A stretch of DNA of 64,000 nucleotides from Chamaelirium japonicum (lineage: Eukaryota; Streptophyta; Magnoliopsida; Liliales; Melanthiaceae). The stretch spans positions 53,175,472-53,239,471 of the forward strand of contig OX393557.1 of assembly GCA_947650365.1 (NCBI GenBank). The letters run 5' to 3'. Of this stretch, positions 4,900-64,000 are shown in pieces. The first letter of the stretch is position 1, and each line of letters starts with the position of its first letter. Under the pieces are notes generated by a model that was not told the origin of the DNA, did no database searches, and saw only the letters and a program-made list of their open reading frames with translations. Position numbers and translations under genes: made by a program.

Positions 4900-6819
4900 A
4901 CCTTCGATAGGCTTCTCGATCCAGGTATCCTCCTTGTTCGCAGCAGAACGAACGTGGAAGATGCGTCGAACTTGCCGATCCACTTCCTTCCCGGTCAAGG
5001 TTTGATTATGCAATGTTCCATGAATACCAAAGACGTTGGCATTCACAGAGATAGGTTGCCGGTTGGAGGAGATTTGATGGATCCAACATGCTTCTTTCCC
5101 CTTTGCAGAGGCTCGACGTTGATCTTGTCCGCCCTTGACGAACTCTTGAAGGTGGCCTTCACGCAGTAGGTCTTCAAGATGGAATTTTAGCCGATAGCAC
5201 CGATCAGTGGAATGGCCATGACTTCGGTGGAAGTCGCAGTAGACCGTTTTGTCAGCCGTGAATTTTGAGTTTGGCTGAAGAGGATTGGGCCTTCGAAGGA
5301 ACTCCTCGTGTTGAATGCGGTCGAGGATCTGTTCGACCGGTAAATTCCACTCGGTGAAAGTGGTCTTCGTTGGAGATCGACGTCCATCATTTTTTGCTCG
5401 CTTGTTGATTGGAGGGGCTGCTGCCTCAGCATTGTGGGCTTTGGCAGCATACTTAGGAGCTTCTCTCTCCGTCGGTCTTCGCTTCGTTTCTCGCCCTTTT
5501 CGAGCGACTTGATCATCTTCAACTTCGATCTCCCTCTGGATTCGATCGAACATAGAACCCAGAGAAGGAGGGGGATTGCGGATAAAATCGTTGTAGATGT
5601 GTAGATCGAATCGGAGGGCGTTCTGGAAAGCCAACATGATGGCTACATCATCCAGATGTCTTCCAGAGAGGGCAGCATGCTCGTTGCGAAACCTCCTGGT
5701 GAAATTACGGAGAGTCTCATCAGCACCCATCCTCAGCCGATATAGGGAGTCGAGCTTCTTCTTTGGCTTCAGATTGAGCTGATAATACTGCACGAAAAGG
5801 TTAGCTAAAACACCGAACTGGGTGATGGACCCAGCTCGGAGATTATGATACCAATCAAGTGAGGGCTCATCGAGACTCCCGACGAAAGTGCGACATAGCA
5901 CGTTGTTCTCTTCTTCGTGCAGTGTCAAGGCTTGTTTGAAGGCGAGTATATAGAGAGTCGGATCTCCTTTGACGCAGTTGAATTTGGGGAGGATAGGAGT
6001 TCTCCATCCCCTTGGAAATGTTGACTCGAAGAGGCTTCGATGTAGAGGCCCGGCGGAGGAATAACCATCCCTACGACCGTGTCCTCGACCTAGATGTGGG
6101 TCAAGAGGCAAGATCGCAAGGTCTTGCTCGGGCATTGAAGTATTTGCCGGTTGAAGTCGATGTCGAAGGTCCGATCCAAGTCCACGTTGAAATGGAATTG
6201 AAGGGGAGACTCTACTCTTTGAAGGAGCGCCTTTTATCTGGTGCCTCCTTGGTATATCGAGTTTTAAAGGTGTCTTCCTATCGCAGTTGCAACCGGAAGA
6301 CGATTGAGAGGACTCATCGTCGAGGCGATCTCAAACACTCTGCTTCCACGGGGTAGCAGAGGGAGTCGGGTCGTGACGAATCCTTTCGAGGGCAGCAGTG
6401 CCCATTGATTTCCGTTGCTCGGAATGGGTTGAATGTCGCGGAAGATTGACCCTCTCACTTATAGAGGGGATAGGAAGAGCGATCCCAGCCTCGGAAGCTG
6501 CTTTCTTAAGAGCATCCCTCTCAGTAGTGAGGGTGGCGTTTTGCTTTGCCAATTGAAGCAATTGGAAGTCGACCGTAGAGATTTGATAGGTCGATGGAGG
6601 GTCTTCAGCAGGAGCGGGGGCAGTTTGCCCAATCGACTGTCGTGCGGGCTGGGCGATCGGTCGATCGACAGATCTCCCACTCCCTGAGCGAACCCCCATC
6701 TCGGGAACAGCAAGGGGCTGTCCGAAGTTGAGCCTTTGACTCATTGATCGAGTCTCAGGACGAGCTTGTTGTTGAGTGTTACTTCCTTCTGGTTGACCCT
6801 GGTGCTTCATCTTCGCCAT
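4900..6819 (-). CDS. Gypsy-1 gag region
   Basis: The frame starts at ATG 6819, about 165 bases after the LTR end. The N-terminal 160 residues are low-complexity (Gln, Ser, Pro, Arg) with one short coiled-coil stretch. The core retrotransposon gag domain lies near 5550-6050, with PILPKFNCVKGDPTLYILAF, the TFVGSLDEPSLDWYHNL block and the ETLRNFTRRFRNE block. A Cys/His-rich segment, VYCDFHRSHGHSTDRCYRLK, lies near 5180-5240. The product would form the capsid of a virus-like particle. The region is not a single open frame. Confidence 0.85.
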
Positions 6820-14649: not shown

Positions 14650-15770
14650 TGTTGGGTGTGTGTGTGTTAAAACCACACTTTTAGTCCCATATCGGTTAGG
14701 GGAGAAATCCCCTACCAACATATAAGGATTTGCCCACTTCCCCCCACTAGTCATCACACTAGAGAAGGGGCTGCACTAGCTCTCACACGCGCGCGCGTGC
14801 GTGCCGTGCCGAGCCGGGCCGGGCCGGGCCGGGCTTGGGCATGGGCTGGGCGGCGCGTGTGTGTGCGCCCGCGGACCCGGACACGATAGCACCTCCGAAA
14901 TGGGCTGGTCCGCACCTGCCCTCTTTTTGTTTTTTGCTTTTAAGTCCTCCACTATTTATTATTTACTATTTGGGACACTAGCCGTTACGCGAGAAGCGCT
15001 GCATGGTAGCCGTTACGTACAGACTCGCTGCGAGCTGTAACGTGCGAGGTTAATGGGCTTAATCGCAGCCCATTAACCGCTCCCCTCTTTCAGCCTCCCA
15101 TTAACAGCCCGAGGCCTATATAAGGCCCGGTGCAGCCATGGGATGTACACACTCTGAAAATCGGAATTTCTCCCTACTTTCTGCCTCTCCCTCTTCCATT
15201 CTCTCGTGCTGTGGTGCTGCCCCTTTGCTCCGAAGAGACTCCCTCTCTCGGATCAAAGCCTTGCTGCGGTGCTGCCTCCCGGCCTCGAGAAGATCGTCAT
15301 CGAGTCGCTGGGTTCCTGAAAGTCTACGAGGTTCGCAAAACCTTCTTGGAGTCGTGCCGACGAGAAGGAGGTCGCCTGACCGGGGTCGCCGTATCTCCCA
15401 GAACAATTGCCACGAGACTCGCACGAGGGGGGCAATAAGATTCTTGGGACAGTGCCTAGCACGCTTCGACCACAGGCCAGAGTCTCTAACTCTTCTTTTG
15501 TCCTAATATTAGATCTAAAATAATCAACTTGCATCTAATAGAGAAATCTAAATAATTAGATATATTTTAGATAGATTGTATCTTCCTTTTAGAAAAGTTC
15601 GGCAAGGTGAATGACGGTTCTATAGAACCCGCTCTGCCTTGGCAAACAATTTCTAAAAGAAATTTGTGACTTGTCCTTGTTTGCAAAAATAACATTTGCT
15701 AATCAATTTTAATATTAATAATTTGATTAAATCCTAAATTTGCTAGTTTAGAACGATTAGATTTCCAACA
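14650..15770 (+). repeat. 5' LTR of Copia-1 (1121 bp)
   Basis: Starts TGTTGGGTGTG and ends TTTCCAACA. Contains a GCCGGGCC tandem run near 14815-14835 and a TATA box CCTATATAAGG near 15115-15125. Frames inside (for example one starting at 15138) recur unchanged in the 3' LTR only because the LTRs are young. Confidence 0.97.
15113..15125 (+). promoter_or_regulatory. TATA box of Copia-1 LTR
   Basis: GGCCTATATAAGG lies about 650 bases before the LTR end, so a start near 15147 would leave about 620 bases of R-U5. An identical copy is in the other LTR near 21229-21241. Confidence 0.65.
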
Positions 15771-16203
15771 ATCCAAGAATCTTATTGTAATTTAATCGTT
15801 CATAAGTTATTTTCTTTGCAACGTGCTCACTAATCATCTATTAGCCTACGTGATCATCTATTAGTCTTTATCTCGTGCTAACTATTAGTTGCTACTAGTT
15901 ACAAAACTATTTTCTACAAAAGTAAATTAGAAGCATAGATTATAGAAAAGACTAAAAGTCGTCATTGGAATATTCCACTGCCTACGGTGTCTAGAAAGGC
16001 TTGTCAAACCGGCATTAAATTGCCCAAGGTAGGTTGGTATTTGAGCGAGCCTAGTGCTCCACCTCCTACCTGGAGCCCATCTGGCCGTTAGGATTTGGAA
16101 GTTTCATTTGGACTTCTAAAAGTCGAATCTATCTAGGTGTACTTTAAAATTGACAAAACTTATTTTTCAATCCACAGATTACAACTCCTTACTTTGGTCC
16201 GAA

Positions 16204-20759: not shown

Positions 20760-21886
20760 TGTTGGGTGTGTGTGTGTTAAAACCACACTTTTAGTCCCAT
20801 ATTGATTAGGGGAGAAATCCCCTACCAACATATAAGGATTTGCCCACTTCCCCCCACTAGTCATCACACTAGAGGAGAGGCTGCACTAGCTCTCACACGC
20901 GCGTGCGTGCGTGCCGTGCCGAGCCGAGCCGGGCCGGGCCGGGCTTGGGCATGGGCATGGGCTGGGCGGCGCGTGTGTGTGCTCCCGCGGACCCGGACAC
21001 GATAGCACCTCCGAAATGGGCTGGTCCGCACCTGCCCTCTTTTTGTTTTTTGCTTTTAAGTCCCCCACTATTTATTATTTACTATTTGGGACACTAGCCG
21101 TTACGCGAGAAGCGCTGCATGGTAGCCGTTACGTACAGACTCGCTGCGAGCTGTAACGTGCGAGGTTAATGGGCTTAATCGCAGCCCATTAACCGCTCCC
21201 CTCTTTCAGCCTCCCATTAACAGCCCGAGGCCTATATAAGGCCCGGTGCAGCCATGGGATGTACACACTCCGAAAATCGGAATTTCTCCCTACTTTCTGC
21301 CTCTCCCTCTTCCATTCTCTCGTGCTGTGGTGCTGCCCCTTTGCTCCGAAGAGACTCCCTCTCTCGGACCAAAGCCTTGCTGCGGTGCTGCCTCCCGGCC
21401 TCGAGAAGATCGTCATCGAGTCGCTGGGTTCCTGAAAGTCTACGAGGTTCGCAAAACCTTCTTGGAGTCGTGCCGACGAGAAGGAGGTCGCCTGACCGGG
21501 GTCGCCGTATCTCCCAGAACAATTGCCACGAGACCCGCACGAGGGGGGCAATAAGATTCTTGGGACAGTGCCTAGCACGCTTCGACCACAGGCCAGAGTC
21601 TCTAACTCTTCTTTTGTCCTAATATTAGATCTAAAATAATCAACTTGCATCTAATAGAGAAATCTAAATAATTAGATATATTTTAGATAGATTGTATCTT
21701 CCTTTTAGAAAAGTTCGGCAAGGTGAATGACGGTTCCATAGAACCCGCTCTGCCTTGGCAAACAATTTCTAAAAGAAATTTGTGACTTGTCCTTGTTTGC
21801 GAAAATAACGTTTGCTAATCAATTTTAATATTAATAATTTGATTAAATCCTAAATTTGCTAGTTTAGAACGATTAGATTTCCAACA
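20760..21886 (+). repeat. 3' LTR of Copia-1 (1127 bp)
   Basis: Same ends and order as the 5' LTR; six bases longer because of one extra GGGCAT unit. Flanked on the right by AGCTC. Confidence 0.97.
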
Positions 21887-22139
21887 AGCTCGACTAGTCC
21901 TAGTCAGCCAACTAGGGCCCGACTTCTGACTTTGACTGCGTAGACAAGAAGTTCGGTAGAAACTTAATTGAACCACATGTTTTCATCCCTTGGAAGATCT
22001 GAACGCCCTTACCACCTACACTTTTCCATGAGCCAATAAATGTATGAATTAAAAGATCATTATACAACCTTAAATATCCAAAAATGATGCAAAGTCAATC
22101 AAAACATAGATGGGAATCTCAGACATGCACTGCTCACTT

Positions 22140-26805: not shown

Positions 26806-26924
<119 letters not shown>

Positions 26925-30414: not shown

Positions 30415-30770
30415 TACCGTCGGTAAATATATGATTAATACCGACTGATCTTAATTTTATCGTCGGTATAAACTATTTGATTTTTTACTAATTTTATGAA
30501 TAATTTATACCGACGACTAATTAAAACCCTTCGGCAAAACTAACATACAGACAGAAATATTATTTACCTTCGATAATATATTATATTACTGATGGTTCAT
30601 ACATGTTCCGTCGGTACTATTTTTTTAATTCTTAATTTTATTTATTTTTTTACCAACGGTTTAAAGGTTTCCCGTCGCCATTAAACTTTGACTTAAACCA
30701 ACGGATTTTTTTCAAACCGTTGCTAAAACTATATTATACCGATGGAAAACTATATATCCGTTGGTATAAA
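30415..30770. repeat. CACTA-type subterminal repeats
   Basis: ACCGTCGGTAA, TACCGACTGA, ATCGTCGGTATAA, TACCGACGAC, TCCGTCGGTAC, CCCGTCGCC and ACCGATGG recur in both orientations in an AT-rich background, as at 53160-53640. Confidence 0.7.
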
Positions 30771-31555: not shown

Positions 31556-31812
31556 ATGGTTAGGGTTTAGGTTGGGTTTAGGGTTTAAGATTAGGGTTAG
31601 GGTTTAGGATTTAGGTTAGGTTTAGGGTTAGGTTTAGGATTTAGATTAGGTTTAGGGTTTAGGTTTAGGTTTAGGTTAGGGTTTAGGGTTTAGGTTTAGG
31701 ATTAGGATTAGGTTTAGTTTTAGGTTTAGGGTTAGGGTTTAGGTTTAGGTTAGGATTAGGGTTAGAGTTAGGTTTAGGGTTTAGGTTAGGATTAGGTTTA
31801 AGTTAGGATTAG
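31556..31812 (+). repeat. Interstitial telomere-like repeats (TTTAGGG variants)
   Basis: About 250 bases of GGTTTAGGG, GGGTTAGGG and GGATTAGG units, a degenerate form of the plant telomere repeat, G-rich on the plus strand. Sequence continues normally on both sides. Confidence 0.9.
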
Positions 31813-32425
31813 ATTTTGGGTTAGCTTAAATGGTAATTATTATAATTTACTAGAATCTAATATTTGCAATATTTAGACCTTAAAAAAATAAGGGGATATA
31901 AGGGGGGATATTGAAAAATAAATAAATCAATCAAAAAAATTATTATTTAAAGGATTTATGTTTTCTTATATCTTGTAATAAGAAATTACACTTGTCAATG
32001 AACTTTTTTTTAGATCTAATTATAAACAATGAAATATTTCTTTACTAATTTAAACAGGAATAAATACAAGATGTTGTACTACAACGGCAGAATGGGTAGA
32101 CACACATTCATGGCGTTCGAGGGGAGATGATATACACTAGATGCCATCAACTAGGATAAGAAGACTTACGTATCTGCAAATGACTAACTCAATGGAGGAG
32201 GATGGCTTACAAAAGATCTATATTGAGATTTGGAGCAATGAGCGGAGACAATATATCGTCATCCTTGCAAACCCAAAAAAAAAAGAAATCGTATCCATCC
32301 GACGACGTATGCTTCAGTGATGTGAGTATGATGAAGAATATCGGTTAAGTGATTTCAAATATGTTACTTTATCCTATTTGTCACGGTTTCTTTAAGTATT
32401 TCCATAAATGCATTATTAGGAAAAT
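31813..32425. other. AT-rich, nothing identified
   Basis: No coding or repeat signal apart from homopolymer runs. Confidence 0.5.
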
Positions 32426-32429
32426 TGCT

Positions 32430-34275
32430 ACAATGTTTAAAATCCGAAACTAAGTTTAAAATTCAAAAAATGAAAACTTATAATTTTAAATTTCTTAAAC
32501 TCAAAATTCATCAATCGGAGGGTAAAATCTTAAAATATATATTAAATACTTGTTCGCAAGTCCGAAATATGAAAAACCATACAAGTAAGAATTATTGGAT
32601 GCGATCTGATAATGATCCGACCAAATCCATACCTAGTTTATAATTTAAAAGCCGAAAACTTATAATTTACAAACATTTAGACTCTAAATTAGTCAATCGG
32701 AGTAAAAAATCTTAAATATTTACTAAATACTTGTTTGCAAGTCCAAAATACAAAAAACCATACAAGTACAAATTATCGGATGCGATCCAATAATAATCCG
32801 ATCGAATACAAATCAAGTTCAAAAGTCGAAAGCTGAAAACTTATGATTTGCAAATACTTAGACTCTAAATTAGTTAATCAGAGGACAAAATCTTAAAACA
32901 TCTACTAAATTCTTGTTTGTAAGTCCGAAATATGAAAAACCATATAAGTACAAATTATCGGATGCAATCTGATAACGATCTGATCGAATTCAAACAAAAT
33001 TCAAAAGCTGAAAGACAATAATTTATGATTTACAAACACTTAGACTCTAAATTAGTCAATCGGAGGGTGAAATCTTTAAACATCTACTAAATACTTGTAC
33101 GCAAGTTCGAAATACGATACTTCATACAATTACGAATTAACGGATATGATTCGATAACGATCCTATCAAATCCAAACCAAGTTCAAAAGTCGAAAACCAA
33201 AAACTTATGATTTGCAAATACTTAGATTCTGAATCAGTTAATTGGAGGGCAAAATCTTAAAATATCTACTAAATTTTTGTTCGCAAATCTGAAATATGAA
33301 AAACCATATAAGTACAAAATATCGGATATGATAAAATAATGATCCGATCGAATCCAAACCAAGTTCAAAAGCCAAAAACAGAAAACCTATGATTTACAAA
33401 CACTTAAACTCTAAATTAGTCAATCGGAGGGCAAAATCTTTAAATATCTTCTAAATACTTGTTTGCAAGTCCGAAATACAAAAAATTATACAAGTATGAA
33501 TTATCGGATGCGATTCGATAACGATTCGATCGAATCCAAAACAAGTTCAAAAGCTGAAAGCCGAAAACCTATGATTTGCAAACACTTAGACTATAAATTA
33601 GTCAATCGGAGGTTAAAATCAATAAATATCTACTAAATACTTATTCGCAAGTCCGAAATACGAAAAATCATACAAGTATAAATTATCGGATGCGATCCGA
33701 TAATGATTCAATCGAATCCAAACTAAGTTCGAAAGTCGAAAGTCTAAAACTTATGATTTACAAACACTTAGACTCTAAATTAGTCAATCGAAAGACAAAA
33801 TCTTAAAATATCTACTAAATTCTTGTTTGTAAGTCTGAAATACGAAAAACCATATAAGTATGACTTATCGGATATGATCCGATCAAATGCAAACCAAGTT
33901 TATAATCCGAAAGCCAAAAACTTATGATTTCTAAGCACTTGGACTATAAATTAGTCAATCGAAGGGTAAAATCTTTAAATATCTACTAAATACTTTTTCG
34001 CAAGTTCAAAATACAAAAATCATACAAGTACGAATTATCGAATGCGATCCGATAATGATCCGATCGAATCCAAACCAAGTTCAAAGTCGAAAGCCAAAAA
34101 CCTATGATTTGCAAACACTTAGAATCTAAATTAGTCAATCGGAGGAAAAAAATCTTTAAATATCTATTAAATACTTGTTTGCAAGTTCGAAATACGAAAA
34201 ACCATACACATACGAATTATCGGATACGATCCGATGACGATCCGATCGAATCCAAATCAAGTTCGAAAGCTGAAC
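32430..34275 (+). repeat. 181-182-bp satellite array A (about 10 units)
   Basis: Landmarks ACTTAGACTCTAAATTAG, TCAATCGGAGG, GCAAGTCCGAAATACGA, GAATTATCGGATGCGATC and GATCGAATCCAAACC repeat with spacing 181-182 (for example 32509, 32691, 32872, 33054). Units differ from each other noticeably. The reverse complement of the array at 54.0-58.9 kb shows the same landmarks in the same order, so both belong to one satellite family in opposite orientations. Confidence 0.93.
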
Positions 34276-34280
34276 AATTT

Positions 34281-34949
34281 TATAACATTCGCCTCAAACA
34301 CACAAGATATTGATCGCTTTGTCCATGCCCGCATGAAGACTTCCCGGGAGGTCACCCGTCCTAGGTCTCTCGAGCACGCTTAACTGCAAAGTTCTTATGG
34401 AATCCGTAGCGGTGCACGATTTTAAAACACGTCTTTTATGTTTGGGAGGGAAAATTATATGTCGCTCAGGTCTCCTTCTCTCCTGATGATTTGGGACTAA
34501 CTCAGTGGCCTTGGACACCTCACCTCATCCCTTTTGGTATCACAGCCTCATGAGTCTTGGCTATTGGCTAAGCACCCCAAGTTCCTCGGCTGCACCTCTC
34601 TAACTTATTGCATCTTGGTCGTCACAATACGACCAAGATGCAATTTCAAATAGCCAAAACTCATGTGACTATGATGCCAGGAGGGATAAGGCGAGGTGAG
34701 GTGTCCAAGGCCACTGAGTTTGTCCGATATCACCTGGAGAGAAGGTGACCTGAGCTACTTATATAATTTTTTCTCCCAAACATAAAAGATGTGTTTTCAA
34801 ACTGTGCGCGACTAGAGATCCCGTAAGAACTTCGTATTTAAACGTGCTCGGGGCAAAAGTAGTACTAGGAAGGGTGACCTCCTGGGAGTCCTCATATGGG
34901 TATGGGCAAAGTGAATAATATCTTGTATGTTTTGGGGGCAGATGTTACA
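34281..34949. mobile_element. Head-to-head Cassandra-like inverted repeat with 5S rRNA-derived arms
   Basis: Two arms (34281-34534 and 34680-34949) are reverse complements along their whole length. Each holds a 5S rRNA-like stretch. The right arm has ATTTAAACGTGCTCGG and GTAGTACTAGGAAGGGTGAC (about 34806-34906, plus strand); the left has the equivalent on the minus strand (about 34321-34418). At the inner edge of each arm is a primer-site-like TGGTATCACAGC (34535-34546, plus) or TGGCATCATAGTC (34679-34667, minus). 5S RNA in an LTR with an initiator-Met primer site is the hallmark of Cassandra TRIMs. Here the two LTR-like arms face each other instead of being direct repeats. The 145-bp centre holds a perfect 16-bp stem. 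Confidence 0.7.
34607..34644. other. Perfect 16-bp stem with 6-base loop
   Basis: ATTGCATCTTGGTCGT (34607-34622) and its exact reverse complement (34629-34644) enclose CACAAT, at the centre of the inverted 5S-bearing element. Confidence 0.95.
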
Positions 34950-40781: not shown

Positions 40782-41143
40782 TTTAGACCTTGTCCCCCAA
40801 CTTGTAGGTCTTAATTAGACTTTAATCCCTAAAATTTTTAAAATTGGACCATGCCCACCCAATTTCACGGATTCCACACCGTGATTGACCAACGTTTGCT
40901 CCTGTTCACCTTCTGTGAGTGCATTCCTAGATTGACGATACTACCCTTCCATATTTAGACTTTGCCCCTTCAGTTGATAACATGTAGCTATACAATGGCT
41001 ATAAATGGGGGCCAATGTCGTAAGGGATAGTATTGTCAATATGGGAATGCACAAGGGTCACAAAGGATCAGCATAGGCAAAACGTTCTGAAAAGTTTAGG
41101 TCAAAGTCTAATTAAGGGTATAAGTTGGGGGGCGACGTCTAAA
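40782..41143. mobile_element. Fold-back MITE (about 362 bp)
   Basis: Left end TTTAGACCTTGTCCCCCAAC and right end GTTGGGGGGCGACGTCTAAA are inverted. The inner halves also pair: GCATTCCTAGATTGACGATA near 40921 with a reverse-complement match near 41020-41050. No target duplication was resolved. Parts of it recur at 41780-41815 and 42012-42140. Confidence 0.65.
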
Positions 41144-41595
41144 TAACCAAACAAAATATGCACATGCATCCATGTGACCTGGGACCCAACACCCATTTCC
41201 CTAGAAAAATAAAATTTACTCGTGAATCACGCGCCTACTTTTCTATTTTGGTTGAGCTGGGTAAGTCGCTGCATTCGATCATCCATGAATGGTTTGGGGG
41301 GTACACTAATTATGAAAAGTTTGGGTTAAAATCTAATTAAGGGTATAAGTTGGGGGGCGACGTCTAAATAACCAAACAAAATATGCACATGCATCCATGT
41401 GACCTGGGACCCAACACCCATTTCCCTAGAAAAATAAAATTTACTCGTGAATCACGCGCCTACTTTTCTATTTTGGTTGAGCTGGGTAAGTCGCTGCATT
41501 CGATCATCCATGAATGGTTTGGGGGGCACACTAATTATGAAAAGTTTGGGTTAAAATCTAACTAAGGGTATAAGTTGGGGGCGACGTCTAAATAA
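41089..41595. repeat. 225-bp tandem duplication built from the MITE end plus flank
   Basis: GAAAAGTTTRGG starts at 41089, 41314 and 41539, an exact 225-bp spacing. Two full units and a 57-base third follow. Each unit starts with the MITE's right end and continues through ATGCACATGCATCCATGTG. The two full copies are nearly identical; 60-codon frames in them are by-products. Confidence 0.95.
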
Positions 41596-53142: not shown

Positions 53143-53145
53143 TCA

Positions 53146-53645
53146 CATTACAAAAAAAACAGTTATTACCGACGGACAATATCCGTCGGTAATATTAATA
53201 TTCCGTCAGTAATATTTTATAGCGACGGAAGATATTTCCGTCGCCAGCTGTCGGGAAAAAAGGTGTCGGGGAAAACAATATGACGGACCAAAAATTACCG
53301 TCGGTAATAATAATTAATACCGACGGTAATATTAAAGCTGTCGGAAAGATTTAAACAATTAAAAATTAATATAATATATTATTACCGACGATACATAATA
53401 TTCCGTCGGTAATATATAAGACTTTTACCGATGGTTAGAATATAACCTGTCGGTAATACTTTATATATTACCGATGGATATATATTTCCGGTCGGTAATA
53501 ATATATATATTACCGACGGCTATATATGTCCAGTCGGCAATAATATATATATTACCGACGGATATTATATTCCGTCGGTAACTTATTTATAATTTTTAAA
53601 AAAATAAAAACTTTATTAAAGACAGAATAATTAATTTCTGTCGGT
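53146..53645. repeat. CACTA terminal and subterminal repeats
   Basis: After the end, TTACCGACGG and CCGTCGGTAAT motifs alternate in both orientations about fifteen times in an AT-rich background, the typical binding-site-dense subterminal zone of plant CACTA elements. It resembles 30415-30770. Confidence 0.88.
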
Positions 53646-53869
53646 AATAAGTATGTTTTTTTTTTAATAAATTTACCTAAATAATGTTATTTAATTCCTG
53701 TGATTTACAACAATACATTACCACAATTTATCAAATATTACCACAATTTATAAAATATTACCGCAAATTTAAAAATATTACCTAAATTGATAAAAAATTA
53801 TAGCAAATTATCAAATAATAACCACATATTACAAAATAATATTTACACAATCCAAAACTGAGAGATGCC
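53646..53869. other. AT-rich 3' region of the tnpA-like gene
   Basis: AAAATATTACC/ACAATTTATC repeats; it would be 3' untranslated sequence of the minus-strand gene. Confidence 0.5.
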
Positions 53870-56800
53870 CTATCTCAACCACCCCCGCCCGCCACCAACG
53901 CTAGTGCTCTCATCGATCCCCTGACGCCGCCCTGCTCCTGCAATTAACATGTATTTGTTAAAAAAATGGTTTATATCTATAACTGAGTCTAAGCGTTAAA
54001 AAATCATAAATTAGCGTGTTTCGGTTTTGAAATAGGTTTGGATTTGATCGGATCGGCATCCGATAATTCGAAGTTGGAATTATTCCATATTTCGGACTTG
54101 TGAGCGAGTTCTAATTGGATATTTGATCAATTTACGCTCCGATTCACCGATTTAGAGTCTAAGTGTTGGAAAATCATAAGTTAATTAGCGTGTTTCGGAT
54201 ATGAAATAGGTTTGGATTCGATCCGATCGTCATCGGATCGGTATCCGATAATTCGAACTTGGAATTATTCCGTATTTCGGACTTGCGAGCGAGTTCTAAT
54301 TGGATATTTGACCAATTTACGATCCGATTCACCGATTTAGAGTCTAAGTGTTGGAAAATCATTAGTTAGCGTGTTTTGGATATGAAATAGGTTTGGATTC
54401 GATCCGATCGTCATCGGATCGGCATCCGATAATTCGAAGTTGGAATTATTCCGTATTTCAGACTTGCGAGCTGATTCTAATTCGATATTTGATCAATTTA
54501 CGCTCCGATTCACCGATTTAGAGTCTAAGTGTTGGAAAATCATAAGTTAGCGTGTTTCGGATATGAAATAGGTTTGGATTCGATCCGATCGTCATCGGAT
54601 CGGCATCCGATAATTCAAACTTAGAATTATTCCGTATTTCAGACTTGCGAGCGGGTTCTAATTGGATATTTGACCAATTTACGATCCGATTCACCGATTT
54701 AAAGTCTAAGTGTTGGTAAATCATAAGTTAGCGTGTTTCGGATATGAAATAGGGTTGGATTCGATCCGATCGTCATCGGATCGGCATCCGATAATTCGAA
54801 CTTGGAATTATTCCGTATTTCGAACTTGCGAGCGGGTTCTAATTGGATATTTGACCAATTTATGCTCCGATTCACCGATTTAGAGTCTAAGTGTTGGAAA
54901 ATCATAAGTTAGCGTATTTCGGATATGAAATAAGTTTGGATTCGATCCGATCGTTATCGGATCGGTATCCGTTAATTCGAACTTGGAATTATTCCGTATT
55001 TCGGACTTGCGAGCGGGTTCTAATTGGATATTTGAGCAATTTACGATCCGATTCACCGATTTAGAGTCTAAGTGCTGGAAAATCATAAGTTAGCGTGTTT
55101 CGGATTTGAAATAGGTTTGGATTCGATCGGATTATCATCGAATCGGCATCCGATAATTCGAACTTGGAATTATTCCGTATTTTCGACTTGCGAGCGGGTT
55201 CTAATTGGATATTTGAGCAATTTACGATCCGATTCACCGATTTAGAGTCTAAGTGTTGGAAAATAATAAGTTAGCGTGTTTCGGATTTGAAATAGGTTTG
55301 GATTCGATCGGATCGTCATCGGATCGGCATCCGATAATTCGAAGTTGGAATTATTCCGTATTTCGGACTTGCGAGCTGGTTCTAATTGGATATATATTTG
55401 ACCAATTTACGGTCCGATTCACCGATTTAGAGTCTAAGTGTTGGAAAATCATAAGTTAGCGTGTTTCGGATTTGAAATAGGTTTGGATTCGATCTGATCG
55501 TCATCGGATCGGCATCCGATAATTCGAAGTTGGAATTATTCCATATTTCGGACTTTCGAGCGAGTTCTAATTGGATATTTGACCAATTTACGCTCCGATT
55601 CACCGATTTAGAGTCGAAGTGTTGAAAAATCATAAGTTAGCGTGTTTCGGATATGAAATAGGTTTGGATTCGATCGGATCGTCATCGGATCGGTATCCGA
55701 TAATTCCAAATTAGAATTATTCTGTATTTCGGACTTGCGAGCGGGTTCTAATAGGATATTTGAATAATTTACGATCCGATTCACCGATTTAGAGTATAAG
55801 TGTTGGAAAATCATAAGTTAGCGTGTTTCAGATATGAAATAGGTTTGGATTCGATCGGATCGTCATCGGATCGGCATCCGATAATTCCAAGTTGGAATTA
55901 TTCCGTATTTCGGACTTGCGAGCGAGTTCTAATTGGATATTTGACCAATTTACGATCCGATTCACCGATTTAGAGTCTAAGTGCTGGAAAATCATAAGTT
56001 AGCGTGTTTCGGATTTGAAATAGGTTTGGATTCGATCGGATCGTCATCGGATCGGCATCTGATAATTCAAATTTAGAATTATTCCGTATTTCGGAATTGC
56101 GAGCGGGTTCTAATTGGATATTTGACCAATTTACGCTCTGATTCACCGATTTAGAGTCTAAGTGTTGGAAAATCATAAGTTAGCGTGTTTCGGATATGAA
56201 ATAGGTTTGGATTCGATCCGATCGTTAACGGATCGGCATCCGATAATTCGAACTTGGAATTATTCCGTATTTCGGACTTGCGAGCGGGTTCTAATTGGAT
56301 ATTTGAGCAATTTACGATCCGATTCACCGATTTAGAGTCTAAGTGCTTGAAAATCATAAGTTAGCGTGTTTCGGATTTGAAATAGGTTTGGATTCGATCG
56401 GATCATCATCGGATCGGCATCCGATAATTCGAACTTGGAATTATTCCGTATTTCAGACTTGTGAGCGGGTTCTAATTGGATATTTGAGCAATTTACGATC
56501 CGATTCACCGATTTAGAGTCTAAGTGTTGGAAAATCATAAGCTAGCGTGTTTCGGATTTGAAATAGGTTTGGATTCGATCGGATCGTCATCGGATCGGCA
56601 TCCGATAATTCGAAGTTTGAATTATTCCGTATTTCGGACTTGCGAGCGGGTTCTAATTGGATATATATTTGACCAATTTACGCTCCGATTCACCGATTTA
56701 GAGTCTAAGTGTTGGAAAATCATAAGTTAGCGTGTTTCGGATTTGAAATAGGTTTGGATTCGATCCGATCGTCATCGGATCGGCATCCGATAATTCAAAG

Positions 56801-59800
56801 TTTGAATTATTTCATATTTCGGACTTGCGAGCGAGTTCTAATTGGATATTTGACCAATTTACGCTCCGATTCACCGATTTAGAGTCGAAGTGTTGAAAAA
56901 TCATAATTAGCGTGTTTTGGATATGAAATAGGTTTGGATTCGATCGGATCGTCATCGGATCTGCATCCGATAATTCCAAGTTTGAATTATTCCGTATTTT
57001 GGACTTGCAAGCGGGTTCTAATCGGATATTTGAACAATTTACGATCCGATTCACCGATTTAGAGTCTAAGTGTTGGAAAATCATAAGTTAGCGTGTTTCA
57101 GATATCACATAGGTTTGGATTCGATCGGATCGTCATCGGATCGGCATCCGATAATTCCAAGTTGGAATTATTCCGTATTTCGGACTTGCGAGCGGGTTTT
57201 AATTGGATATTTGAGCAATTTACGATCCGATTCATCGATTTAGAGTCTAAGTGCTGGAAAATCATAAGTTAGCGTGTTTCGGATTTGAAATAGGTTTGGA
57301 TTCGATCGGATCGTCATCGGATCGGCATCCGATAATTCGAACTTGGAATTATTTCGTATTTCGGACTTGCGAGCGAGTTCTAATTGGATATTTGACCAAT
57401 TTACGCTCCGATTCTCCGATTTAGAGTCGAAGTGTTGAAAAATCATAAGTTAGTGTGTTTCAGATATGAAATAGGTTTGGATTCGATCCAATCGTCATCG
57501 GATCGGCATCCGATAATTCAAACTTGGAATTATTCCGTATTTCGGACTTGCGAGCGAGTTCTAATTGGATATTTGACCAATTTACGATCCGATTCACCGA
57601 TTTAGAGTCTAAGTGTTGGAAAATCATAAGTTAGCGTGTTTCGGATATGAAATAGGTTTGGATTCGATCCGATCGTCATCGGATCGGCATCCGATAATTC
57701 GAACTTGGAATTATTCCGTATTTCGGACTTGCGAGCGGGTTCTAATTGGATATTTGACCAATTTACGCTCCGATTCACCGATTTAAAGTCTAAGTGTTGG
57801 AAAATCATAAGTTAGCATGTTTCGGATTTGAAATAGGTTTGGATTCGATCCGATCGTCATCGGATCGGCATCCGATAATTCGAACTTGGAATTATTCCGT
57901 ATTTCGGACTTGCGAGCGAGTTCTAATTGGATATATATTTGACCAATTTACACTCTGATTCACTGATTTAGAGTCTAAGTGTTAGAAAATCATAAGTTAG
58001 CGTGTTTCGGATTTGAAATAGGTTTGGATTCGATCCGATCGTCATCGGATCGGCATCCGATAATTCGAACTTGGAATTATTCTGTATTTCGGACTTGTGA
58101 GCGAGTTCTAATTGGATATATATTTGACCAATTTACGCTCCGATTCACCGATTTAGAGTCTAAGTGTTGGAAAATCATAAGTTAGCGTGTTTCGGATATG
58201 AAATAGGTTTGGATTCGATCCGATCGTCATCGGATCGGCATCCGATAATTCGAACTTGGAATTATTCCGTATTTCGGACTTGCGAGCGGGTTCTAATTGA
58301 ATATTTGAGCAATTTACGCTCCGATTCACCGATTTAAAGTCTACGTGTTGGAAAATCATAAGTTAGCGTGTTTCGGATTTGAAATAGGGTTGGATTCGAT
58401 CCGATCGTCATCGGATTGGCATCCGATAATTCAAACTTGGAATTATTCCGTATTTCGGACTTGCGAGCGAGTTCTAATTGGATATATATTTGACCAATTT
58501 ACGCTTCGATTCACCGATTTTGAGTCTAAGTGTTGGAAAATCTTAAGTTAGCGTGTTTCGGATATGAAATAGGTTTGGATTCGATCCGATCATTATCGGA
58601 TCGGCATCCGATAATTCGAACTTGGAATTATTTCGTATTTCGGACTTGCGAGCGGGTTCTAATTGGATATTTGACTAATTTACGCTCCGATTCACCGATT
58701 TAAAGTCTAAGTGTTGGAAAATCATAAGTTAGCGTGTTTCGGATATGAAATAGGTTTGGATTCGATCCGATCGTCATCGGATCGGCATCCGATAATTCGA
58801 ACTTGGAATTATTCCGTATTTCGGACTTGCGAGCGGGTTCTAATTGGATATTTGAACAATTTACGATCCGATTCACCAATTTATAGTCTAACTGTTGGAA
58901 AATCATAAGTGTGATAATATGATCTAAACTCAAATTAGTAAGATTCATATTTTTTGCTAATATTATAAAGATTAGTAAGTACCTGATCATGAGGATGAGC
59001 CACCGCTAGACCGGCTTATGAATTCATAAAATTTACGCTCCAGTTCCCTGCGAGCTTCTCTTTCCTCATCGAGGGCCTTCTTCTTCGCCTCAACCCTCTG
59101 CTCGAGGGCCTACCTCTGCTCTTGCTCCACGTCTAGCGCAGACTGCAGCTGATTGATAGCACCGGTCTGGGTGTCCCGTGCCCTCGAGCGCATATCCTCT
59201 CGTCCAAAGTAGGAGGAGGGCGTGACTCCAAGGCCCATACAGAGGACACGGCCGTGCGTGGCAGGTCTCAACACAGCATCCATCGCTGAGTTGACAGATA
59301 CTGAGCTGGAGGAGGAGCCGGCCTCACCCGACGGGGTCACCAGAAGTCGCATCCTCTCCTATATAAAAACAACCAATGATATTCAATGATATTTTATGGC
59401 ATATGTATAAGAATATATTAACAGTAATTTAATTACTTACCACTTGCGAGGCAATCCTGTCGTCCAGAAATGCCCCATCGATACACCGCCTCCTAGAGGC
59501 CTCAAAAAGGTCAATCCTATTAGGCTCGTGGCCCAAGGACTGTATCTGTTGGACATATAAAATAAATAGATGAGTTAATATAACATGTATAGAGCTTTAA
59601 AAAATAACAATGTTTGTATCATTTACCAGCTGCTGGGCAAGCTGGGGCATGGAGGTCCTCCCCTTCACTGGAGCAGGTGTCGTCGAGGCACTTCTATTCT
59701 GCTTGCCTATAGTAGATTTCCTCTGTGTCAATCGATTAAATTTTGAAACATCAATACAAATATTTAGTATAACATTAAAACAAGTACGAATCAACAAAAT

Positions 59801-60639
59801 TATAATTATACCTGAAAGCTAGGGGTGGCCTAGTGAGCGACCAAAAACTATAGAACGTGTAGCGGTGGCGCGTCTCTCATCTCGGCCGCAGCCTGTACCT
59901 CCTCAACCGGCTGGCCGACCAAGTAACCGTAGAGCTGGTAGAGCTCGTGACGGTAATCCCTGTACCGCTCACCCATCATCTTCCACAAGTCCTCCCGATG
60001 GGTGTCGGTTTCCATGTTCTCCCATTTAAATTTCTCCTGTAAAATTAATTTAGAAACAAGTCATTTTATCAAATCAAATTATAAAGAAGTACGATATTAT
60101 TCTAAAATGCTTTAATGAAACTAGCGTACCAAAAACTGCTGATACATCCTCTCTTTATAGGATGCATTAATGTTCTTCCACCCCCTTAACCCCACAATCG
60201 GGGCATTCCTCTCCTCCCGTACTATAATGCCGACCCACGTGGTGGCGTCAGAAGCATGCTCGCCCACAAAGGTCCTGCCGCTCCACTGTAGGGAAAGCGA
60301 CTCACATAAGGCCGACAAGCGCCGGGCCGTCGTCACGCCCCGGTCGCCTACGTGCCTGGTGATCCTCGACCCTGCAAATAAAATATACATCAGTACTAAA
60401 GAAGTATTTACAACATGTATAAAACTTTAGATCTAAACATTACCTGTGGGCGTAGACGCTGTAGCCGAGTGCTGAGCACTGCTCAAAACTCCGGAGGCTG
60501 CGACCACATCAGGAGCTGGTGTGGAGAGAGGAACAGCACTACCAGATCCGGACGGCTCAGCCTCGGACCCTGGGGTGGCAGCCGGAGCGCTCCGAGCTAC
60601 CCCACCCCTGCCTCTACGAACATATGACCGTGATGCCAT
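53870..60639 (-). pseudogene. tnpA-like CACTA gene (Ptta/En/Spm family), about seven exons
   Basis: Starts ATG 60639 with an Arg/Gly/Ser-rich segment. Exons inferred from splice sites: to about 60443; about 60372-60131 (SRITRHVGDRGVTTARRLSA, GLRGWKNINASYKERMY); about 60038-59813 (EKFKWENMETDTHREDLWKM, ERYRDYRHELYQLYGYLVG); about 59730-59629; about 59545-59441 (GHEPNRIDLFEASRRRCIDG); about 59355-58983 (SVNSAMDAVLRP, a coiled coil LEQRVEAKKKALDEEREARR); and 53937-53870 (GIDESTSVGGGRGWLR, stop 53872-53870). These are hallmarks of plant En/Spm second-gene proteins, which bind subterminal repeats. The last intron is 58982-53938, about 5.0 kb of satellite; phase is consistent across it. Premature stops: two after LHV (near 59830-59850), TAG after EQEQR (about 59110), TGA near 58990. 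Confidence 0.75.
53985..58912 (-). repeat. 181-bp satellite array B, about 27 units, inside the last tnpA intron
   Basis: Plus-strand landmarks GTGTTGGAAAATCATAAG, GCGTGTTTCGGATATGAAAT, GATCGTCATCGGATCGGCAT, CGGACTTGCGAGCGGGTTCT and GATTCACCGATTTAGAGTCT recur every 181 bp (for example 54518, 54699, 54880; 55970, 56151, 56332). Several units carry an extra TATA (GGATATATATTTGACC). Units are far more alike than in array A. Many 68-codon frames on both strands arise only because 181 bp repeats; they are not genes. The array ends about 70 bases from the splice donor. Confidence 0.97.
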
Positions 60640-60890
60640 CTGAAACAGTTTAATTTACATATAAAACAGTAAGATTTACATATGAAACAATATAAAACAG
60701 TTTGATTTACTTATGAAACAGTATGATTTATGAAACAATATGAAACAGTTTGATTTACATATAAAACGGTATGATTTATATATGAAACAGTATAAATTAA
60801 TATGATATACATATGAAACAATATGATTTATATATGAAACAATTTGATTTAAATATGAAACAATTTGATTTACATACGGTCTAGTCATTT
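60640..60890. repeat. About 22-bp AT-rich tandem repeat between the two CACTA genes
   Basis: TATGAAACARTWTGATTTACA units recur about eleven times with variants, between the tnpA start and the end of TNP2. It may hold the tnpA promoter or intron; no TATA box can be singled out. Confidence 0.75.
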
Positions 60891-60927: not shown

Positions 60928-63900
60928 CTATATTTGATCTGCATTCGTTGTCCAGTTTATATTGTCGACATCTTCATTTTCGTCATGCACTGCGTCGACA
61001 ATGATTATCTCATCATTCTGGTATGCATCCAAATCATCATCGACGACCCCCGCATCCTTGTCTCCTATGTCATAAAAATCTCTGGGTGGTGACCTGACTA
61101 CAATTTGTCAACCTGGAGAGGTATTATCCGGTGCATAAAATTTCTGTTGCGCTTGAGAGGCAAGAATGAATGGATCTTCATATTGGGTATTCAGTCTCTT
61201 GCCAGTGTTGATGCTGATAAAACCGTATTTGTCGACATTATAACCAGTCCCGCGATTATTAACATCATACCAATCGCATTTGAATAATACGATCCGATTT
61301 TGGCCAAGGAATTTAATCTCGAGAATCTCGTTGAGGACGCCGTAGAAGTCGATATTTTCTAATTCTTCTTGTTCACCGTTGACGATAACCCCACTATTTT
61401 GGGTTCTTCGTGATTTTTCACTATCTTTCGTCCGAAATCTATAACCGTTCACGATATAACCATCGTACGATATTGCATCTTACAAAGGACTACAAGATAA
61501 GCGCTAGAGATCCTCATTCATCAGCGGATCGTGGTTGCCGTGCAGCTCTTGTGCCTATAATAACCACATGACATTCATGATATGAACACATAATTATTGT
61601 TCGGTAATGGATGTCAATGAAATTCAGTAATGATGTGAATACTTACGTGTTTCTCGAACCACAATGGAAATTCACGATCATGAATTTGGGGAGCATTTCG
61701 AGTACCCCGATTATTAATGATGGCTTTATGCTTCCTGTTTTACAGGTTATGAATTAGATTATAATTAACACATATACTTAATGAATGGACTGAAAGAATG
61801 AGTAAATGATCGTAAAATGCTTACTCAATGAATGGCCACACTTCATCACATTGGCGCAACACATACATATGTGCCTGTTGAATCTCATCTAGAGACAATC
61901 GACGGGTTTCACCTCCTCCTACAGGTCTACCCATTTCGGCAAATATAGACAGACCCCCATCGAAGTCTATTGGACCACCGTCATAGTTCCGCTTAAGTTG
62001 ATTGAATCGCGTGTTTATACCATGTAGGTATCTTGAGCAGAATATTAGACATTCTTCTGCTAGGTATCCTTCAGCAATTGATCCATCCGGACGAGTTTTA
62101 TTACGAACATATGATTTCAATGTTCGCAAGTACCTAATTTGAGAAAAATATATTTGGATGAATATATCAAGAACGATCAAATACATTGTGCGAATGAGAC
62201 GAGACGATTACCTCTCGATAAAATACATCCAGCGGTAATGAACTGGGCCGCCGAGTTTGGCCTCATTTGCCAAGTGAACGGTCAAATGCACTATGACATC
62301 AAAGAAGGAAGGTGGAAATATCATCTCTAGCTTGCACAATGTGAGCGCAATATCCCTCTCCATCTGTTCAAGTTGGTCCAATCTAAGTACCTTCGAGCAC
62401 AACTGTCTGAAAAAAGTACTGAGCTCAATTAACGGACCGGACATCTGTTCGGTTAAATTCCCACGTATAGCAAGAGATAACAATCGCTGCATAAGAACAT
62501 GACAATCGTGGCTCTTTAATCCAGACAACTTCCGGTCGCTCTCTTGCATGCATCGTGCGATATTCGAAGAATAACCGTCTGGCGTTTTCACAGACGTAGG
62601 AATGCACATAAGGCTGCCTTTTACTGTGAGCTAATGGTGTAGCATGCAACTGGCAACACATACTTATCCCCAATCTCTTGGGGATGAAGTGATTTTCGGA
62701 TGCCCAACTCCTTAAGATCGAGACGAGATTTAAGATTATCCTTCGTCTTACCGTCGAAATTCAGCAGTGTTCCTATAATGTTGTCACACACATTTTTCTC
62801 GATATGCATGACATCCAAGTTATGCCGCAAGAGTAGGCTGCTCCAGTTCGGTAGTTTAAAGAAAATACTCTTCTTCTTCCAGTTATGCTCACGCGTAGAA
62901 TGTTCATGCGTTCTCTTCTTTTTACCTTTCCCAAGTGCCACGACATCAAGCTGATCCAATTCGCACAAGACTTCTACCCCCGAAAGCTGCTCCGGGGCCT
63001 TTGCAAGTTCCTTCTTGCCGTTGAAAGCTCTTTTGTTCTGCCTCCACTTATGGCCGTCAATAAGGAATCTTCGATGGCCCATATAACAGAACTTGCCTCC
63101 GTTCTTCAACCGTAATGAATCTGTCTCCTTATTGCATGTAGGGCACGCCAATTTTCCTTTAGTACTCCACCCGGATAAGTTGGCATATGCAGGAAAATCG
63201 TTGATGGTCCATAGAAGTGCCGCATGCATCCGAAAATTCTAGCGCAACGAGGCATCATACGTATCGGCCCCAACTTCCCATAACTCGTTCAACTCCTCAA
63301 TCAACGGCTGCGAGTAAATGTCAATATCATTACCAGGCGACCTGGGTCCGGGAATGAGCAAGGAGAGCATTGTGTATGGCTTTTTTAAGCACATCCAGGG
63401 AGGCAAATTGTATGGAACTAGGACAACTGGCCAAATGCTGTACGACACACTCATATTCCCAAAGGGATTGAAGCCATCGCTAGCAAGCCCTAACCTAACA
63501 TTGCGAACTTCACATGCGAATTCAGGATAGGTATGATCAAAATCTTTCCACGTCAGAGAGTCGGCCGGATGTCTCATAATCCCGTCATCTGTACGTTCTC
63601 GTGCATGCCACCTTATATGCTCAGCAGTCTTCGATGACATAAACAACCTCTGAAGCCTGTCCCTAAGCGGGAAGTATAGGAGAACCTTTGCAGATATATT
63701 TTTCTTCCTTCGACTGGTACTAGACTCGGCATTCGTCTCTTTATATCTCGTTGCTCCGCATATGTGGCATGACCGCGCATGTTCGTACTCTTTCCAGTAC
63801 AACATACAATCGTTCACGCATGCATCAATTTTCTCATAACCCAGATCGAGATCTTTAATTGTCTTCTTCATCTCATAGAATGATTTCGGTACTGTCTCAC

Positions 63901-64000
63901 CCATAGGAAAAGCTTCTTTCAGCAACTCTACCAACATATTAAATGACTTATTACTCCAACCATTGAGGCACTTCAAATGAAGAAGCTTTACAGTGAAAGA
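60928..64000 (-). pseudogene. TNP2 transposase of CACTA element (5' end outside window)
   Basis: The first visible part (64000-62621) has NMLVELLKEAFPMGETVPKS, DLDLGYEKIDACVNDCMLYW, CHICGATRYK, FASDGFNPFGNMS-like and WPVVLVPYNLPPWMCLK, RMHAALLWTINDFPAYANLS, GKLACPTCN and RHNLDVMHIEKNVCDNIIGT: the TNP2 catalytic region. DUF4218 follows (62609-61821: SGLKSHDCHVLMQRLL, FPPSFFDVIVHLTVHLANE, GPVHYRWMYFIER, GYLAEECLIFCSRYL), then DUF4216 (about 61540-61000: FYGVLNEILEIKFLGQNRIV, FKCDWYDV). The end is TAG 60928-60930 after an acidic tail. The N-terminal transposase-associated domain lies beyond 64000. Broken: TAG at 63239-63241 (probably CAG), TAA plus frame change near 62605-62625, stops near 61470-61510, and TGA near 61110. 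Confidence 0.88.

Follow-up and report, generated by a model that had tools for sequence, protein, structure and literature searches.

A 181-bp satellite array as a resident part of a CACTA transposon family in Chamaelirium japonicum, in a putative 3′-UTR intron

The window analysed here, a stretch of 64,000 nucleotides from Chamaelirium japonicum (assembly GCA_947650365.1, contig OX393557.1, positions 53,175,472 to 53,239,471 of the forward strand), carries a CACTA (En/Spm) transposon in which an array of about 27 satellite units, each of 181 bp, lies after the stop codon of the tnpA-like gene and before the 3′ subterminal repeats. Comparison with other copies in the genome supports the array as a resident, fixed-position part of a large CACTA family, which travels with the element. 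We propose that it is a resident satellite of this lineage, most likely placed in an intron of the 3′-untranslated region (UTR), from where it would be removed from the mRNA and so cost the element little, and that every transposition would bring it to a new locus. After insertion the array would gain and lose whole units and become partly homogenised within its locus; it would have been present before two subfamilies, A and B, diverged, and would have diverged along with them. Taken as a whole, we regard this account as rather probable. The features of the element in the window are the following.

53985–58910, minus strand (that of the gene): 181-bp satellite array of subfamily A, about 27 units, from Tandem Repeats Finder (TRF), BLAST and segmentation
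53938–58982, minus strand: putative 3′-UTR intron with the array, donor at 58982 and acceptor at 53938, borders kept across copies
58983–59358, minus strand: last coding exon of the tnpA-like (Transposase_24) gene, with an extra in-frame TAG in the window copy
58987–58989, minus strand: in-frame stop codon TGA, four bases 5′ of the donor
59439–60627, minus strand: approximate extent of the upstream tnpA-like exons
60641–60876, no strand: AT-rich minisatellite between the tnpA-like and tnpD-like genes, the place of an inverted 181-bp array in 9 of 30 fetched copies
61108–64000, minus strand: tnpD-like gene with DUF4216, DUF4218 and Transposase_21, continuing past the window edge
53163–53581, no strand: subterminal repeats with CCGTCGGTAAT-like motifs
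53144–53162, no strand: mutated terminal inverted repeat CACATTACAAAAAAAACAG, which reads CACTACAAAAAAAACAG in the C6 copy

TRF reports a period of 181 with 26.7 copies and 93% matches at 54047–58910, BLAST of the last units extends the monomer similarity left to about 53985, and anchor segmentation divides the array into 27 unit steps of 170–185 bp each. The first-pass annotation of this DNA had claimed about 27 units of 181 bp here, and had given the letters and positions of two splice-like borders; both claims stand. On the minus strand the donor-like border is CAG followed by GTACTTAC at 58983/58982, and the acceptor-like border is TTGCAG followed by GAGCAGG at 53938/53937. Non-repeat spacers of 72 bp on the donor side and 47 bp on the acceptor side separate these borders from the array. 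The label "centromere-like" for this satellite comes from its monomer length alone.

The host is confirmed as a CACTA element, as had been claimed, by the tnpD-like and tnpA-like genes in the window and by CACTA termini and 3-bp target site duplications (TSDs) in other copies of the family. Transposase_21, DUF4218 and DUF4216 lie to the right of the array (Transposase_21 with E 1.3e-57 and 1.3e-36 on two pieces), and the second gene matches Transposase_24 (E 4.2e-10) on exons joined by hand, its four single exons giving no domain match. The end of the window copy is CACATTA, mutated from CACTA. CACTA-type terminal inverted repeats are present in a complete copy on C6 (CACTACAA...TTGTAGTG), which is 15,636 bp long, is flanked by ATC on both sides, and holds a 5.29-kb array together with a 1.14-kb inverted array between its two genes. 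They are also present in L054, which is 1,178 bp long, has both ends and the TSD AAG/AAG, and retains the two termini plus half a monomer (about 90 bp) and nothing else.

Genome-wide searches were made in the assembly of 1.52 Gb, and the satellite copies studied are the dispersed ones adjoining CACTA flanks. With the gene-side flank (58911–59370) as query, the best 40 of 1,572 candidates were scored and 30 loci taken; with the end-side flank (53830–54046) the best 40 of 3,056 candidates were scored, all with at least 98% identity, and 30 loci were again taken. Both sets include the window and, by coordinates, share it and one C11 copy, which leaves 58 distinct elements. Monomers in a single orientation adjoin the flank in all 30 gene-side loci and begin at an identical left junction in all 30 end-side loci, L054 with its half monomer among them; the phase of the right junction is identical in 27 of the 30 gene-side loci. 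The 1,500 bp beside the gene-side flank are filled by array in most loci, with just 407 bases in L017 and 1,052 in L021. Inverted monomers at the second site were seen in nine gene-side loci including C6, some of the remaining flanks being too short to judge. The array as a separate insertion is thus rejected: the first-pass annotation had placed it within the transposon and had proposed looking for such an insertion in other family members, and those fetched carry it at the same place. A copy on C8 at 53.46 Mb (L074 and L076) has about 4 kb of other DNA inserted between the array and the last exon (element positions 6269/6262).

The size of the family is indicated by the stop and donor motif TCATGATCAGGTANTTANTAAT, which has 1,207 exact matches in the genome (576 and 631 by strand; none for a backward control). 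An exact array-edge word follows this motif 42–70 bp on in 883 cases genome-wide, and the exact 29-base acceptor occurs 1,318 times, the control giving none in either case. Among 31 array clusters counted by eye in the best-listed matches, 21 have the end-side flank listed and one further cluster, at C1 104.26 Mb, has the donor listed; the other nine have no CACTA flank among the best 40 matches listed, so that some arrays may exist outside CACTA elements.

The last exon ends in the same manner throughout the gene-side set, since in its frame TGA, TCAG and GT follow one another in 30/30 copies; no other in-frame stop interrupts this exon in 19 of them, including L030 with its shifted start. 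Genome-wide, exact sites with TGA number 1,207 versus one with CGA. The earlier claim that the reading phase fits across the intron therefore fails, because the TGA at 58987–58989 lies in that very frame. A coding intron is rejected on the same grounds, and the intron, if spliced, lies in the 3′ UTR. CGA in the B copy on C7 might suggest a coding ancestor, but the single CGA among the exact sites and the stop found in nine of ten further B-type flanks (eight TGA and one TAA, with one CGA) argue against one. The donor GT is kept in all 30 copies and the acceptor AG stands at the identical place in 30 of 31 rows; no variation is seen in the seven columns that run from the stop to the donor or in the first 12 of the intron, whereas 228 of 369 exon columns are invariant. 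AATAAA is absent from the gene strand of the array, where shuffles lead one to expect 10.2 occurrences. An exon junction this near behind the stop should not trigger nonsense-mediated decay. From the sequence of these borders we infer that the array would be spliced from the transcript, and consider it likely that the interval is a 3′-UTR intron; the array would then be nearly neutral for the element.

A related array in the window bears on the age of the association.

32441–34269, plus strand (the orientation that corresponds to the gene strand in the C7 B CACTA): subfamily B array with units of 182 bp and about 71% identity to A
30435–30620, no strand: weak CACTA-like subterminal motifs (E 1e-4, 67% over 193 bp) in the neighbourhood of the B array

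These motifs stand about 1.8 kb left of the array, which may thus lie in a decayed B-type CACTA copy. Relatives of the B array are dispersed across the genome (2,057 candidates, best 40 scored). The B array on C7 is inside a CACTA element with a tnpA gene 77.8% identical to that of the C6 copy; it comes directly after the homologous donor region and before the homologous acceptor region and CACTA end, and both splice-like borders are recognisable in this lineage. Among the best 40 B-type donor flanks, four (C7, which is the query itself, C10, C11 and C4) stand 15–341 bp before a listed B array, as compared by eye among the matches listed on both sides. The ten further B-type flanks mentioned above, all short, run without exception into A- or B-like monomers of the same orientation within the 316–433 bp fetched, and nine keep the donor GT. 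From these homologies we conclude that the array was probably already present before the A/B split, in the common ancestor of the two subfamilies.

Within that set of ten (L079–L088), A-like or mixed monomers occur in L079 and L082, a sign that arrays pass between the subfamilies. Degenerate telomere-like GGTTTA(GG) repeats lie beside the B array of the window (31564–31824), and similar ones 5′ of the tnpA-like gene in the B CACTA on C7 (L077, 1–430). The right flank of the window B array is a repeat of its own (34270–34760), with 4,649 first-look candidates genome-wide, and its listed matches meet listed B arrays only at three neighbouring places on C9. It is reminiscent of 5S-like repeats, but a gathering search of the whole window against Rfam returned no match.

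Arrays read to both ends measure 4.9 kb in the window, 5.3 kb in the C6 copy, 6.6 kb in the C11 copy, and 3.6 and 7.4 kb in the C8 copies at 5.97 and 53.46 Mb. The C5 copy at 22.76 Mb, an internal deletion derivative, has 4.0 kb, and short arrays are found in L052 (1.35 kb), L055 (1.46 kb) and L054 (about 0.09 kb). Pairing donors with acceptors over the first listed places, which cover C1 as far as about 78.9 Mb with 86 donors and 100 acceptors, produced 60 same-strand pairs with a spacing of 1,991–20,627 bp and a median of 5,410 bp, none being below 500 bp. For the 54 pair lengths below 8.2 kb the best period, of those tested from 120 to 260 bp, is 180.5 bp (R 0.58; 0.57 at 181), so the arrays differ mainly by whole units; unequal exchange or slippage would account for such steps. 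When 112 units from four arrays (window, C6, C8 and C11) were compared, 68 had their nearest relative within their own array, whereas 1,000 label shuffles gave 28 such units on average and never more than 44. The end units of the window, C8 and C11 arrays match each other (3–4% apart) and are 11 bp short in all three; that of C6 is full length and 8–9% away from them. This pattern agrees with inheritance of a single array whose units were afterwards gained, lost and homogenised locally.

A number of observations weigh against this account. The gene-side junction deviates in three of the 30 loci (L029, L036 and L038). On C1, 26 of the 86 donors and 40 of the 100 acceptors have no partner, and a wrong-strand control produced seven chance pairs. 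The acceptor AG is missing in L064 and the donor GT in L084, and the B copy on C7 has GCAA where A has GCAG. The last exon shows much the same variation at its three codon positions (0.055, 0.040 and 0.046), and there is therefore little sign of selection on most copies; the conservation of the borders may come in part from the youth of the copies. The missing AATAAA reflects the sequence of a single monomer and does not amount to 27 independent observations. Finally, L082 combines a B-like flank with an A-like array (89%); arrays therefore appear exchangeable between the subfamilies, and deep co-inheritance is not proved.

Alternatively, the array could be resident without any intron, the tnpA-like transcript being cleaved and polyadenylated soon after the stop and the array serving as an untranscribed spacer before the subterminal repeats. 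The predicted protein ends 5′ of the donor in all 30 copies and thus does not need the splicing of this interval, which agrees with such a spacer. However, the two borders are conserved in A and can still be recognised in B, a YTRAY-like branch site is seen 5′ of the acceptor, and the gene strand of the array offers no AATAAA; we therefore hold an unspliced spacer to be rather unlikely. Selection might instead keep the array as something useful to the transposon (a chromatin or small-RNA feature, a means of spacing subterminal transposase sites, or camouflage). All full or partial copies fetched have it, as does the B lineage, and no paired C1 copy has its donor and acceptor closer than 0.5 kb, which would be in keeping with such a role. 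Yet L054 was mobilised, with a TSD, while holding only about 90 bp of monomer, and copies differ greatly in their number of units, as a passenger would; a useful array is therefore quite improbable.

Individual CACTA copies might also have picked up a host satellite later and repeatedly, or the array might have inserted independently at the window locus; capture has a precedent in a quinoa element whose satellite is described as captured (PMC8978399). Against such events are the left junction, the same in 30/30 loci, the phase of the right junction, the same in 27/30, and the end unit, which lacks the same 11 bp in the window, C8 and C11 arrays, though not in the fourth, C6. Such events are refuted for the copies sampled, and we give them next to no weight in general; a single ancient capture by the family ancestor may have occurred. 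The preferred reading, a resident array in a 3′-UTR intron, can be extended to a long-term refuge in which the array, spliced out and inherited since before the A/B split, would change mostly by whole units, with the transposon and not the centromere as the main source of the satellite in the genome. This extension we put forward only tentatively, as somewhat less than an even prospect.

Elsewhere in the window, direct repeats of 1,128 bp at 14650–15771 and 20760–21887, 98.2% identical and about 5 kb apart, look like the long terminal repeats of a young retrotransposon. A perfect (TC)56 microsatellite occupies 26811–26922, and a 225-bp unit is present in 2.3 copies, 97% alike, at 41088–41595.

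The closest known system is Jozin, a CACTA element of Chenopodium quinoa with "captured" satellite DNA (Belyayev et al. 2022, PMC8978399). Jozin is a Transposase_21 CACTA 16.5 kb long, and near its 3′ end 32.5 monomers of 171 bp form an array of 5,550 bp. It resembles the present family in having a several-kilobase array of monomers of about 170–180 bp near the 3′ end of a CACTA element, with the array dispersed along chromosomes. It differs in that four elements were reported, versus the 58 distinct elements fetched here, and that splice-like borders, unit steps, an inverted second array and a homologous array in a sister lineage are not described in the text consulted. The monomers are unrelated, BLASTN of the 171-bp monomer against the 181-bp consensus giving no match better than E 7.5. 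The first-pass annotation had called an array of this size in an intron unusual; with a 5.55-kb quinoa CACTA array published (PMC8978399) the rarity was overstated. A satellite in a CACTA intron was not found in the literature searched, in which subscription papers were mostly beyond reach.

Helitron and Helentron elements also carry and disperse a variable satellite-like array between conserved ends (review PMC12628747; an oyster case in PMC7492417), but they are rolling-circle elements in which the array is central rather than in an intron of a gene. The Drosophila Y genes kl-3 and kl-5 have satellite-filled introns (PMC6508621) and so share with the present case a satellite in an intron, here a putative one; theirs are reported as megabases of simple repeats in host genes, with transcription demonstrated. 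A major Chenopodium satellite derives from a CACTA-like element (PMC7320549), a similar link between CACTA and satellite, although the repeat there is reported to have arisen from transposase-domain deletion derivatives. As far as our searches go, several features are new: a position that is constant across the family, borders resembling splice sites, lengths that differ among many copies by whole units, a homologous array in the sister lineage (co-inheritance), and a second array in inverted orientation.

Carriage by a transposon would directly explain how one satellite family comes to occupy very many dispersed sites, each jump being able to plant a satellite array. With more than 1,000 copies with fixed flanks in one genome, one could measure copy by copy how units are gained and lost, how arrays homogenise inside a locus and across loci, and how larger arrays are seeded. 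The putative intron raises the question of whether, in plant cells, the splicing of a transposon transcript can bridge kilobases of satellite.

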